DNA of 36,309 nt from Nitrospinaceae bacterium (GTDB lineage: Bacteria > Nitrospinota > Nitrospinia > Nitrospinales > VA-1), in the NCBI GenBank assembly GCA_029261515.1, contig JAJDBE010000011.1, positions 1 to 36,309 of the forward strand. The letters run 5' to 3'. A program made the position numbers and the translations under genes. The notes beneath the pieces were generated by a model that was given only the letters and a program-made list of their open reading frames with translations, searched no databases and was not told the origin of the DNA. The stretch's first letter is position 1. Each line of letters starts with the position of its first letter. This document shows positions 3,070-8,925 of this stretch, piece after piece.

Positions 3070-4023
3070 TCAATCAAACAATGAACTTACCGATGTCTCC
3101 CGGTGAATCCTGAGAATGGCTTCACCTAAAAGAGGGGCAACGGATAAAATTTTTACCTTGGGATTATTTTTCAACTCATCGTGCAACGGAATCGTGTTGG
3201 TCGCCACGATCGATTTGATCGGCGATTTCGTAATGCGGTCCGCCGCCGGCCCGGAAAGAACCGGATGCGAACAACACGCGTGCACCTCTTTCGCGCCATC
3301 TTCCAGCAAGGCGTTGGTTGCCTCCATCAAGGTTCCCGCCGTGTCAATCATGTCATCCACAATGAATGCGACTTTCCCCTTCACATCTCCAATGATGTTC
3401 ATGGCTTTCGCCTCATTGGGCAACTCCCGCCGCTTGTCTATAATGGCCAGAGAAACACCCAGGCGCTTGGCAAAGGCGCGCGCCCGCTCAACACCGCCAG
3501 CGTCAGGAGAAATCACAATGAGGTTCTCAAGTTTAAGCTCCTTAATATATTTGACCAGAACGTTCATTGCAAATAAATGATCGACCGGAATATTAAAAAA
3601 CCCTTGAATCTGGCCGGCGTGGAGGTCGACGGTCAATACCCGGTCCGTTCCGGCGGTTTCCAGAAGGTCCGCCACGAGCCTTGAGGTGATCGGGACGCGC
3701 GGTTCGTTCTTCCGATCCTGCCGGGCGTAGCCATAGTAGGGCAACACCGCGGTGATCCGCTTGGCCGAAGACCGCTTCAGGGCGTCGATCATGATCAGCA
3801 TCTCCATCAGATTGGTGTTGCCCGGATTGGAGGTGGACTGAATCACGAACACATCGCCGCCGCGAACGTTTTCATCGATTTTGACGTAGATCTCCTGGTC
3901 GGCGAAGTCACGAATATTGGACCGCCCCAGGGGAACGTTCATATACTTGCAAATATCTTCCGCCAGCTCAGGGTTCGCCCTGCCGGAAAAAACTAAAACC
4001 TTGCCGTTGCCATTTTTATCCAT
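3070..4023 (-). CDS. prs: Ribose-phosphate pyrophosphokinase (PRPP synthetase)
   Basis: Makes PRPP from ribose 5-phosphate and ATP for nucleotide, His, Trp and NAD synthesis. The protein is 317 aa, normal class I length. Visible motifs: the ATP-side segment [10 protein letters not shown] (96-105), the Mg2+ and nucleotide region [13 protein letters not shown] (131-143) with Asp133 and His135, [10 protein letters not shown] (172-181), and the ribose-5-phosphate-binding PRPP loop [11 protein letters not shown] (222-232). The start ATG at 4023 lies only 25 bases beyond the 3' end of the tRNA-Gln gene, and no strong Shine-Dalgarno is visible. It may therefore be expressed from a transcript that also releases the tRNA. 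Confidence 0.97.
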
Positions 4024-4325: not shown

Positions 4326-5222
4326 TCATGGGTAATTCAACATTGGGTCCGGCCAAAACTCGTCAAAACCCATAACCGTTTCCGTCAAAAACACTCCCCA
4401 GTCCCCTTGGTTTAATTTGGCATACGCACTTTTTGCTTGATCCGGGGCATCAAAGATACCAAAAACTGTGGAACCGCTGCCCGATAAAAGCGCCCCCTTG
4501 GCCCCCAGGGAAATCAGTTGGTCCTTGATGGCCTGAATGGCAGGATACCGTTGAATAACAACAGGTTCCAAGTCATTGCACAAGTGCGTTCCCAAGCCGG
4601 AAATCTGCGATTGGGACAAAAATTTTTGCAAAATGCTAATATTATTTTCACGCTTTGTCAACTTCAATTTTAGATTCTGATAGACCCAGGAGGTGGCAAT
4701 GGGAAACATCGGGTAAAAGAGCAAAACCTGAAATTTTTCAGAAGGTTCGAGAGCCGACAAGATGTCCCCGCGGCCCCTGCCCAGAGCGCACGGAGCCGTC
4801 AGGAAAAAGGCAACGTCCGCCCCCAGTTGCCGAGCGAGCGGAATCAGTTTTTCCCGGTGTAATTGCATGTCCCAAAGTACATTGAGGCCCATGAGCACCC
4901 CGGCAGCATTGCCGCTGCCGCCGCCCAGCCCGGCTCCGGAGGGGATATTTTTTTTCAATCGGATTCGGGCTCCAGGCCGGTCGCCTGGAAAACTTGCCAT
5001 GAGCAGATTCGCCGCCTGCACCACAAGATTGGTTTCATCTTTGGGGATTCCCGGCGCATCGCATTCGAGTTCGATTCCAGCCGGCAGGGTTTCTAGTTCA
5101 ATCTCATCATAGAGGGAAACCATCTGCAAAATAGTTTCCAGTTCGTGGTAGCCGTCTTCCCGTTTGTGGTGGATGTGAAGCCCAAGGTTGATCTTGGCTG
5201 GGGTTTTAAAAGACAGTTTCAT
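4326..5222 (-). CDS. ispE: 4-diphosphocytidyl-2-C-methyl-D-erythritol kinase
   Basis: GHMP-family kinase of the MEP isoprenoid pathway that phosphorylates the 2-hydroxyl of CDP-methylerythritol. It has 298 aa. KINLGLHI (10-17) holds the conserved Lys10. PSGAGLGGGSGNAAG (94-108) is the ATP glycine loop; most homologues have SSDAA here, so the Gly-Asn version is a small deviation. GADVAFF holds catalytic Asp136, and LLSGSGSTVFG is the third GHMP motif. The start ATG at 5222 is 8 bases after the lolB-like stop with no clear Shine-Dalgarno, which suggests translational coupling. It sits between the LolB-like gene and tRNA-Gln/prs, matching the lolB-ispE-prs neighbourhood of proteobacteria. Confidence 0.95.
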   Translation of the reverse strand: MKLSFKTPAKINLGLHIHHKREDGYHELETILQMVSLYDEIELETLPAGIELECDAPGIPKDETNLVVQAANLLMASFPGDRPGARIRLKKNIPSGAGLGGGSGNAAGVLMGLNVLWDMQLHREKLIPLARQLGADVAFFLTAPCALGRGRGDILSALEPSEKFQVLLFYPMFPIATSWVYQNLKLKLTKRENNISILQKFLSQSQISGLGTHLCNDLEPVVIQRYPAIQAIKDQLISLGAKGALLSGSGSTVFGIFDAPDQAKSAYAKLNQGDWGVFLTETVMGFDEFWPDPMLNYP

Positions 5223-5230
5223 GCCGGCAG

Positions 5231-6067
5231 CTAATACTGTGGCAGGGAAACACTCGCCTTGGGCAGGGCGAGCATAAAAGCATCTGCCGGAATACCGGTA
5301 TTGACGACAGGGTCGGTGTACTTCAAAGTGAGCTTCTCACCGCGATCAGGAAACTGGAGGGTAATGTGATGCGGAACATCCCAGCGGTCGATTTTCCGGT
5401 AATCCTCCCATTGCACCTCAAGCATCCCCAGACTTTTGCTCTTTCGTAAAATCCGTGAAGGGAGCAGCGTGAAAGCATCGAGTTCGATGTCGATTTTGAC
5501 TCTTTCCACAGGATCGACTGCTTTTAATTGGTACGTTTTCCCATCTTCGCTCAAGGCCCCCTGAATGATTTTCAAGGACTGCATTTGCGGAATGGCGCCA
5601 TAAAAAACAGGAAGATACTTTTCAAAGTTCAGGCTCATCCCCAGGGTCCGGGATAAAACCTTCTGCACTTCCTCGCCCAGGATCAATCGGTTGCGCCCAG
5701 GATCGTACAGAAGAACTTTCGATCCTTGCGGCAGTTGCTGGTTAAATATGAAGACGCCCAAAGGCTGACCGAACACATTCATCGTGTCGATCCTCAGCGA
5801 ATCTTCCTGATGAATCAGCAGGGTCTGACGGAAGGAATGTTTTCGGTCTTTTGTTTCAACGGTGGTGCGAACGAACGATTTCAGGTCCGTCAACCCGGTC
5901 TGCCTGTGGCTCAATTGCTGCTGGAAGTACTCCAGGGAAATCGTTTCCTGGGTCAGATGCGAGGCAGAAGGCCCCATTTTGGATTGGCACGCGGAAAGGG
6001 GAACACTGATCGCCAGTATCACCAGCCCTGCCGCCCACCGGGGGAATGAAAACAAACGCACCGTCAT
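5231..6067 (-). CDS. Outer-membrane lipoprotein, LolB/DUF4292-like
   Basis: Predicted lipoprotein of 278 aa. A basic N-terminus and hydrophobic stretch end in LSAC with Cys27 as the lipidation site. The body is rich in beta strands with alternating polar and hydrophobic residues, and includes a segment resembling the LolB/LppX lipid-binding fold (LLYDPGRNRLIL, later PSRILRKSKSLG). LolB inserts lipoproteins into the outer membrane. The fold assignment rests on pattern and context: lolB lies directly before ispE and prs in gammaproteobacteria and this gene holds the same place. The start ATG at 6067 has AAGGA at good distance, 22 bases after the preceding gene. A DUF4292-type protein of unknown role is the alternative. 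Confidence 0.7.
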   Translation of the reverse strand: MTVRLFSFPRWAAGLVILAISVPLSACQSKMGPSASHLTQETISLEYFQQQLSHRQTGLTDLKSFVRTTVETKDRKHSFRQTLLIHQEDSLRIDTMNVFGQPLGVFIFNQQLPQGSKVLLYDPGRNRLILGEEVQKVLSRTLGMSLNFEKYLPVFYGAIPQMQSLKIIQGALSEDGKTYQLKAVDPVERVKIDIELDAFTLLPSRILRKSKSLGMLEVQWEDYRKIDRWDVPHHITLQFPDRGEKLTLKYTDPVVNTGIPADAFMLALPKASVSLPQY

Positions 6068-6089: not shown

Positions 6090-8321
6090 TCAATAGCTTT
6101 CCTGAAGCAGTTTATCGACTTTCTTTAATTTTTCCTGCAGTACGCCGAGGTCCGGGACTTCGCCTCCGTCAGGATCGTCTTTTTTCACTTTGGTCAAAGA
6201 CAAGCTGGTCTTCCAGGCCCCATTGGCCGCTTCATAGTTTTTCAAAGAAAACTGAACATCTCCCAAGTGGTCGTACAAAACGGGGTCCGGTGGGGCATAC
6301 ACCATGGCTTTTTTGATCTCTGTCAAAGCCAATTCCGGTTCGCCTTTTTTGAAATAGATCCATCCCAGGCTGTCCAGGAAGTAGCCGTTGCGCGGTTGAA
6401 TGGAAAGCGCTTTTTTCAAATGGCTGATGGCTTTATCCAGATAGTTTCCCTGCAACGCATACATATAACCGATAAAATTGTGGGCATTCGAATGCATCGG
6501 ATTCAAGGCGATGGCTTGCTGCATGTTTTGAATGGCATCATCGTAATTTCCGCCCCGCTCCAGAAGAGCGCCCAGTTCGAAATAGTAAGAATCCTTGCTG
6601 TCATTGAGAGTAATCGCGATCCGCATGTTCTCTATGGCCAGATCGTATTTTTCAACGCCCATATAGGCCAGAGCCAGAGAGTGATACAAGGAATCATTTT
6701 CGGGTTCCAGCTTGACCGCTTCCTGGATCAGCCGAATGGCTTCTTCCGGCTGTCCATCCAGACTGTACAACCGGGCGGCATAGCGCAGAATCTCAACCGA
6801 TTCCGGCTCCATTTTCTTCAGGATTTCGAATTCCTCTATCGCCTTGTCCAGCCGGCCCAGAATTTCGTAAATCCGCGCCAGAAGCATGTGCGGTTCTTTG
6901 GTGTCTTCTTTTGCCAGAAGCAGCTGAAACTCGTCCAGAGCCTTGAGGTAAATGGCCTGCTCATAAAAAATAGCCGCGATATTCATGTGGATATCAGGCT
7001 GATCCTGTAGCTCCTCCGGAATACCGGATTGATGATTCGCTAACGGGTCCGCCGATTTCCGCTGCAGTTGCTCAACGTGATCCCTCACTTTTTTGTTTCT
7101 GGGGTCCAGTTTCGCGAGCAACTTGTACTCCCTTAACGCCTGCTCGGTTTTGCCAAGGTACATCAGAACCCAGGCCAGGTGTTCACGTGCCTGAATATAA
7201 TTCGGTCTAAGAGAAATGGCCTTCTCAAAACTTTTTTCCGCATTCTCCAATTGTCCTGCCTGGATATGGGCGCGGCCCAGGTAGAAATGCCCAAGAGGAT
7301 TGTTCGGCTCCGCTAAAGCCACCTGTTCATACAACTCTTTTGCCCGCTCGTATTGTTTGAGCGAATCAAATACGATTCCCTGAAGCAGGTAGGCACGGGC
7401 GCCTCCAGGATCGGCTTCCGTCACCTTCTGGTAATGTTTAATAGCGCCATAGGAATCCTGACGCGCCGCCAGCACATCCGCCATGATCATATTGAGTGCC
7501 GGGTTATTGGGGAAACGTTCCAGGGACGCGCCGCAAACTTGTAAAAGTTCATCGATTTGCCCCGACCTCAAGAGAAGGCCCGCCAACTTTTCGTGGAATG
7601 CTTCATTCTTCGGGTCATATTTCACCACCGCGCTGTAATGCGATGCCGCTTCCTCGAATAAGGACTCACGCTCGGCGTTTAACGCCATGAGGTAGTGGTA
7701 ATAGGCTCTGGGGTCTCCGGTGGAGGCTTGCGAATCCCCTCCCTTTTTGGCCAACTTTTTTACCGCCATAGAAGAAGAAAGGTCGGCATCCCCCCCGGCA
7801 ACACCGTTAACGGGAAGACTGCTACAGTTTGAAACAAACAGACACCCCGCCAACATTAAAGCGGCGCCACGCATCTTGATCGACAAACGAGTTAAAATTT
7901 CTTTCAAGCCTGGGTCTTGGATCATCTCAAGGTTTCCTTTTAAACCATCATCATTGGAATTTTCAGAGGAGGTACTGGAAGTTTTCGGTTGCGAATCCTT
8001 CTTTTTTTCATCCGGGATAAAAAGCCTTGGCGCTTTTGCAAAGGCAACGGGGGCTTCCTCAAAAACCACACGGCTCAATTCCCCAAGACCCGAATGTTGT
8101 TTGATTTCTCCGATTATCTTTTTCCTCAACGCGGTGAGAGCGGGAATCCATTCCTTTCCTGCAACCTGAACGTAAAGCGTTTTTGGAGCCACTTTAGTTA
8201 CTTTGGCAATCGCCGCAATTTCTTTTCCCACCGCCAGGGTCCAGTAGAACGCAATTCTGTCCAGAGAATCTTCTGGGGAAGATTCAATTTCCTGCAAGGA
8301 TTTGGACAAAACTGCCTGCAT
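6090..8321 (-). CDS. DUF721 (DciA-like) domain fused in frame to a TPR lipoprotein-like protein
   Basis: One open frame of 743 aa with two parts that are normally separate proteins. Residues about 18-105 match the DUF721/DciA-like pattern (WTLAVGKEIAAIAKV, then YVQVAGKEWIPAL), a cytoplasmic nucleic-acid-associated domain. A polar Ser/Lys-rich linker follows (about 106-132), then DPGLKEILTRL, typical of the end of DUF721 proteins. From Met150 the sequence resembles a lipoprotein signal (MRGAALMLAGC, with LAGC at 157-160). Residues about 200-740 are a long array of TPR repeats, a protein-interaction scaffold. No stop separates the halves. The start at 8321 has no strong Shine-Dalgarno. An internal start near Met133 (7925) or Met150 (7874) could give a separate TPR lipoprotein. 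It heads the lolB-like/ispE/prs run. Confidence 0.85.
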   Translation of the reverse strand: MQAVLSKSLQEIESSPEDSLDRIAFYWTLAVGKEIAAIAKVTKVAPKTLYVQVAGKEWIPALTALRKKIIGEIKQHSGLGELSRVVFEEAPVAFAKAPRLFIPDEKKKDSQPKTSSTSSENSNDDGLKGNLEMIQDPGLKEILTRLSIKMRGAALMLAGCLFVSNCSSLPVNGVAGGDADLSSSMAVKKLAKKGGDSQASTGDPRAYYHYLMALNAERESLFEEAASHYSAVVKYDPKNEAFHEKLAGLLLRSGQIDELLQVCGASLERFPNNPALNMIMADVLAARQDSYGAIKHYQKVTEADPGGARAYLLQGIVFDSLKQYERAKELYEQVALAEPNNPLGHFYLGRAHIQAGQLENAEKSFEKAISLRPNYIQAREHLAWVLMYLGKTEQALREYKLLAKLDPRNKKVRDHVEQLQRKSADPLANHQSGIPEELQDQPDIHMNIAAIFYEQAIYLKALDEFQLLLAKEDTKEPHMLLARIYEILGRLDKAIEEFEILKKMEPESVEILRYAARLYSLDGQPEEAIRLIQEAVKLEPENDSLYHSLALAYMGVEKYDLAIENMRIAITLNDSKDSYYFELGALLERGGNYDDAIQNMQQAIALNPMHSNAHNFIGYMYALQGNYLDKAISHLKKALSIQPRNGYFLDSLGWIYFKKGEPELALTEIKKAMVYAPPDPVLYDHLGDVQFSLKNYEAANGAWKTSLSLTKVKKDDPDGGEVPDLGVLQEKLKKVDKLLQESY
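7842..7874 (-). other. Internal lipoprotein-like signal inside the DUF721-TPR frame
   Basis: Codons 150-160 of the long frame read MRGAALMLAGC: a start-competent Met, Arg, a short hydrophobic run and a perfect LAGC lipobox. A second Cys follows after FVSN. The hydrophobic core is short if Met150 is the start. With Met133 as start the basic region LTRLSIKMR would precede it. This suggests that an independent secreted product starts here. Confidence 0.5.
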
Positions 8322-8925
8322 CCCGAACCAGGAGCTGCCTTCGTTTCGTTTTTGAATCGTATAACTCCGGCAAGTAAAAGAGAACTCAACACATACCTTT
8401 TTATTTTAGCTTAGGTCAAACGGCAAGATAAAGTTTTATTTTAGGGTTCTCCCTTCCAGCACGCTGGGAAGTAAAGGCTTTTTATAACAATAAGGACTTG
8501 CTCATCGCCCATTTCCCGGGGCTTGAAAAAAAATTTCCAGGCCGGGTGGCCTTTGTCTGATCCTCGCTGCTAGAAAATTAGTTTTTCGATCTGCAAAAAC
8601 AAACCGACCTGCTAAAAATAATTGGCATCGATTTTTTTTATGGCGTCGTGCGCAATGCCGGTATTTTTTAGCCGGGATCAACCGGATAGACAAAAAAGCC
8701 ATCCGGATTTTATCCTGCCACTCCTCCCTCACTTGCGGCCGCCCCTCTGTGAGCGTTCCCTGCAGGCTTGGCGGGCGTTATTAATTGAAAAATTTGGGGT
8801 TATAAAAAGTTCGAAAAACCCTGAAAGCCGATTAAATTTATCGGGGGAAGCATTAAACTCTTAGCGGCGAGCCCAAAATCATCTATAATAAAAGGACTGA
8901 GTTTTTCGGGAATTATAAGGAAATT
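8322..8925. other. 604-base gap without a convincing gene
   Basis: The gap separates divergent operons. Short frames on both strands lack recognisable domains or good ribosome sites. AT-rich tracts occur near 8401-8450 and 8610-8640. A small hairpin CCGGAT/ATCCGG (8682-8687 with 8701-8706) is visible. The right end holds a candidate promoter for the kinase gene. The left end should hold the promoter of the large minus-strand run, but no good -35/-10 pair stands out. Confidence 0.5.
8861..8889 (+). promoter_or_regulatory. Candidate promoter for the RsbW/STAS pair
   Basis: A perfect -10 hexamer TATAAT at 8884-8889 lies 37 bases before the start codon of the kinase gene. The -35 region 17 bases upstream (TTAGCG) is a weak match. 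AAGGA lies six bases before the ATG at 8926. The -10 is good; the -35 is doubtful. Confidence 0.45.

Follow-up and report, generated by a model that had tools for sequence, protein, structure and literature searches.

Long and short products of a single frame are known from the nested in-frame starts of infB, cheA and mcrB, and in Bradyrhizobium fbcH a cytochrome b/c1 precursor with an internal signal is cut by signal peptidase to give two proteins. The helicase loader DciA of V. cholerae consists of a KH-like domain, a flexible linker and a C-terminal helical tail that binds DnaB, on which the tail folds into a helix hairpin (PMC9912922, PMC9865707). In Pseudomonas, lbcA is followed by lolB and ipk (PMC6050968). 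Here we analysed a locus of a Nitrospinaceae bacterium in which a DciA domain and a TPR protein share one frame; a literature search found no paper linking Nitrospina with DciA.

Layout and neighbourhood of the fused frame

The frame lies on the reverse strand of the window (the whole stretch of DNA analysed, 36309 nucleotides) at 6090–8321(-). It is uninterrupted over 743 codons counted from the first ATG, with the stop at 6092–6090. The encoded protein begins with a DciA (DUF721) domain, which a variable linker separates from a hydrophobic segment and the TPR array that follows. The earlier note had described one 743-codon frame with DUF721/DciA and TPR halves, and this was confirmed by ORF reading and Pfam. 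Residues 5–87 (8061–8309(-)), the KH-like domain, matched PF05258 at 35.4 bits (cutoff 24), with a long run of TPRs detected behind them. A profile comparison also matched the solved DciA domain 7ykm at 5.8e-10. An AlphaFold model built from 24 fused homologues (mean pLDDT 81.6) recovered the helix/strand order of the DciA domain, followed by a low-confidence stretch (residues 95–131) in the variable linker, which spans 7926–8057(-), a single helix (residues 137–163) spanning a tail motif and the hydrophobic segment, with its second half at low confidence, and a TPR superhelix (6093–7823(-)), the predicted mature lipoprotein. The PF05258 match was the only one in this genome, the assembly of which is about 90% complete, and one PF05258 protein was found in every genome with a match, so no source of DciA other than the full-length chain is visible.

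Where the ORF truly starts in this genome is uncertain, as an ACG (8358–8360(-)) occupies the place of the ancestral ATG. Homologues begin approximately 13 codons upstream of 8321, where relatives (compared using L002–L008) have an ATG, and a GGAG is present at 8368–8365, just 5' of the ACG. The ACG may represent a mutation, a rare start codon or an assembly error. Position 8321, the first ordinary start here, already falls within the N-terminal segment that is conserved among homologues.

The frame is followed on its strand by genes for a LolB-like lipoprotein (5231–6067(-)), ispE (ipk; 4326–5222(-)) and, further on, the ribose-phosphate diphosphokinase prs (3070–4023(-)); ribosomal protein L25 and pth are also encoded downstream. 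The TPR part thus occupies the lbcA position of an lbcA-lolB-ispE operon, and since the order TPR, lolB-like, ispE is that of Pseudomonas, we regard the TPR half as LbcA-like. PA4667 (LbcA), the outer-membrane TPR lipoprotein that partners CtpA, was matched collinearly and its fold ranked 34 and 50; other TPR proteins scored higher, and such matches are unspecific. Two CTP proteases (TIGR00225) are encoded in this genome, and the TPR lipoprotein is probably an LbcA-type partner of a CTP protease.

Distribution and origin of the fusion

Matches to the fused protein were found in 60 of the 60 nearest relatives, most of them MAGs. Frame-by-frame reading of the loci gave 26 fused, 32 adjacent but separate (including one class-level outgroup) and seven without a DciA match in the stretch read. 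Within the order, the fusion was present in 26 of 57 readable genomes and in 11 of 16 genera, the others having both genes side by side. The fused genera include that of this genome (g1), g2, g6 (all readable members except one) and g9. In families f2, f3 and f4 every one of the 15 readable genomes was fused, with no split among them. Separate genes were found in g3, g4, g5, g7 (the sister genus of g1) and g8, and in the remaining member of g6. With 26 fused genomes and the fusion in all sampled families of the order, the suggestion that a stop codon was lost in this genome is no longer tenable. The fusion probably dates from the ancestor of the order. A tree of the TPR part needs six state changes (for example, a single basal fusion in the order with five fissions after it), compared with approximately seven by count if the ancestor of the order had separate genes, so the tree alone hardly decides the ancestral state.

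Two loci show other histories. The exceptional g6 member (L045 of G029) is a recent re-split, in which the DciA and TPR frames differ and overlap; only the TPR frame still contains the tail motif, and this frame probably starts at an ATG at column -26 with the SD (Shine–Dalgarno) sequence GGAG. Outside the order, a single genome of family f8 (L098 of G069) has a second dciA-TPR fusion with a 783-codon open frame; its sisters L099 and L105 have separate genes, and it is apparently independent of the fusion in the order.

Directly before the hydrophobic segment, the fused proteins share a helix of the pattern D..L(K/R)..L.R(L/I)..K, represented here by DPGLKEILTRLSIK (D136–K149; 7875–7916(-)). 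When each protein was scored with a matrix built without its own genus, the motif averaged 20.9 in fused proteins, with the lowest score 3.0 (L041), against a null from TPR segments with a mean of -5.3 and a 99% point of 6.2. Most separate-gene members of the family were at background; the exceptions were the re-split L045 and two members of g7 (L002 and L007), in which the motif is fading. In the class-level outgroups f6, f8 and f9, whose dciA genes end in a stop of their own, the motif makes up the last 20–35 residues of DciA. The outgroup scores (3.5 to 13.4) were modest singly when compared with shuffles (mean 0.4, S.D. 3.5, one at 18.2), and the motif was at the same place in all eight outgroup proteins. 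A motif belonging to the signal only was therefore rejected, since it is the tail of DciA in the outgroups and decays after fission.

Because the helix before the signal corresponds to the C-terminal tail of DciA in outgroups with separate genes, these comparisons indicate that the two genes were fused when dciA lost its stop, whereby the loader tail would have become the n-region of a lipoprotein signal. In the separate-gene genera of the family DciA ends before the tail, whereas outgroup DciA ends with it; the best reading of their separate genes is thus that secondary fissions shortened DciA. The post-fission DciA of g3, g5 and g8 (for example, L018, L029 and L043) consists of little beyond the KH domain, yet it is the only DciA of the genome. 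A comparison of the tail with that of V. cholerae DciA in the PDB gave no sequence match, so it is by analogy that the tail of the fused protein may act on DnaB as in V. cholerae.

Export signal, internal start and selection

The tail is followed by the hydrophobic h-region of the signal with positions -3 to -1 of the lipobox (VSN; together 7827–7874(-)) and by Cys166 (7824–7826(-)), which closes the sequence LFVSNC and would be the N-terminus of the mature lipoprotein. This Asn-Cys was invariant in 24 aligned fused homologues, a lipobox cysteine was present in nearly all separate TPR genes, and the outgroups with separate genes have ordinary -GC or -SC lipoboxes at this position. The signal has therefore not decayed, and the TPR part is predicted to be lipidated on Cys166 and cut by Lsp. 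The asparagine at -1 (7829–7827) is nearly universal in the lineage and atypical, lying outside the usual G/A/S. The earlier note had placed a lipoprotein-like signal inside the frame, but chose the cysteine of MLAGC (Cys160); residue 160 is not conserved, and the conserved cysteine is Cys166 (VSN-C). Its alternative of a decayed signal and a protein of one compartment was not supported, as the hydrophobic segment and the cysteine were retained in every fused homologue. By the earlier note, a lineage-wide fusion combined with the lack of a conserved signal or cysteine would have spoken against its reading; the same fusion does occur across the lineage, but both signal and cysteine are conserved.

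An internal ATG at 7925 (Met133; 7923–7925(-)) is preceded 9 nt 5' by an AAGGA SD sequence (7935–7939(-)), and the site was kept across three families. AAGGA or GAAGG with an ATG was found at the equivalent position in g2, part of g6, g9 and most genera of f4 and f2, and the separate TPR genes of the sister genus g7 start at the same SD and ATG. The mean SD energy of the internal starts was -4.2 kcal/mol compared with -2.3 kcal/mol for a control set of 857 in-frame ATGs (P=5.6e-5, a value that overstates independence because the fused rows are related). Of the 12 fused genes with a glycine codon within the SD, 11 use GGA, compared with 26% in the background. Members of g14 have a TTG or GTG start displaced by two codons, which is accompanied by a GAGGA-like site in about half of them, and a subclade of g6 has a AAGGATGA-like site ahead of an ATG or GTG at column -26. 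An upstream ATG of g14 (-44/-46) was checked as a start and had a poor SD. The separate TPR genes in the family often have weak SDs, and a start can therefore be recognised only imperfectly here from the strength of its SD. A search for an internal promoter gave no minus-strand match within 7700–8900. Of the two internal starts that the earlier note had named, 7925 is thus conserved and has an SD, whereas 7874 was discarded, with an ATG in that column in only one of 25 other fused genes. The conserved site at 7925 supports the idea of nested in-frame starts giving two products.

In nine close pairs, the DciA and TPR parts were mostly under purifying selection, and the tail more strongly so in most pairs: Ka/Ks was mostly 0.06–0.4 for DciA, lower for the tail in most pairs, and up to 1.4 for the linker. 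The linker was close to neutral in several of these pairs, yet its frame was open in the fused genes, whereas off-frame readings of the same linkers were open in only five of 52. That this fast-evolving linker keeps its frame open indicates a role for the full-length product in the fused lineages.

Proposed model: one frame, two destinations

Since its export signal is intact and it apparently has a second start midway, the frame would most likely yield both a cytoplasmic and an envelope protein. We consider it the likelier reading, with reasonable rather than high confidence, that it gives a full-length DciA-signal-TPR chain, probably cut at the lipobox, and in addition the lipoprotein alone from the internal start. 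An ancestral pair of genes, dciA and a TPR lipoprotein gene, would have lost the dciA stop, so that the DciA tail helix continued directly into the hydrophobic part of the signal. The upstream start would then give DciA, linker, tail, signal and TPR part, and the SD and ATG at 7925 would give a TPR prolipoprotein with the DciA tail as the n-region of its signal, to be lipidated on Cys166, cut by Lsp and active in the envelope. The full-length chain would supply the only DciA of the cell. Judging from its anatomy, its internal signal would most likely also be inserted and cut at the lipobox, the simplest fate given that the signal is intact; cleavage would thus split a polyprotein, and DciA with its tail would stay at the inner membrane, facing the cytoplasm. 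More tentatively, the only DciA may be made as the cytoplasmic, signal-peptide side of the lipoprotein precursor, so that Lsp cleavage frees the lipoprotein and leaves DciA, together with its DnaB-binding tail, anchored at the inner membrane; if true, this would couple loading of the helicase to the maturation of a lipoprotein and to growth of the envelope. The predicted sizes are roughly 19 kDa for the DciA fragment, 64 kDa for the lipoprotein and 83 kDa for the precursor.

If instead the upstream start alone were used and Lsp cleavage parted DciA from the lipoprotein, the internal SD and ATG would be a relic. This would account for a frame kept open through the linker, and it suits L020, L030 and L041, fused genes that have no convincing internal SD and ATG, as well as the L098 fusion, which has no obvious strong internal start. 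However, a relic should decay, whereas the site was kept in three families and, where it had moved, was mostly formed anew, and we regard this explanation as unlikely. Rather improbable is a nested arrangement in which the lipoprotein comes solely from 7925, the long product is an uncut DciA-TPR chain and the open frame serves translational coupling. Translation across the linker would indeed keep the strong and conserved start site unfolded, but a nearby stop suffices for coupling, as in the separate genes of g7, leaving the approximately 35-codon open frame in all readable f2, f3 and f4 members unexplained, and the full-length chain has an intact signal and cysteine. That the genes are in frame by chance and no fused product matters is very improbable and already disfavoured: although five genera in the family have the two genes apart, the fusion is found in 26 genomes of 11 genera, none of the 15 readable f2, f3 and f4 genomes is split despite a near-neutral linker, and the tail motif is retained while fused and lost after fission.

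If the reading of a cut full-length chain plus a separately started lipoprotein is true, a replication factor and an envelope lipoprotein in one frame would be an unusual case of one gene serving two compartments, with one peptide acting both as the C-terminal tail of the loader and as the n-region of a signal; the sister genera with separate genes offer a natural comparison. The fused protein resembles V. cholerae DciA in its KH-like domain, flexible linker, helical tail and single copy, but its tail is not C-terminal and runs on into the lipoprotein signal and TPR protein. Like LbcA (PA4667), its TPR half lies directly upstream of lolB and ispE/ipk genes, has a collinear C-terminal sequence match and occurs in a genome with CTP proteases; lbcA, however, is a separate gene in Pseudomonas, whereas here the TPR part is fused behind DciA and a partnership with CtpA is putative. 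As in infB, cheA and mcrB, a long and a short product would come from one frame via internal initiation, although the short product here would have another compartment and another function. As in fbcH, one precursor with an internal signal would be split in two by a signal peptidase, but both parts of the fbcH product belong to one membrane complex, whereas here one would act in DNA replication and the other would be a lipoprotein of the outer membrane, and the peptidase is expected to be Lsp.
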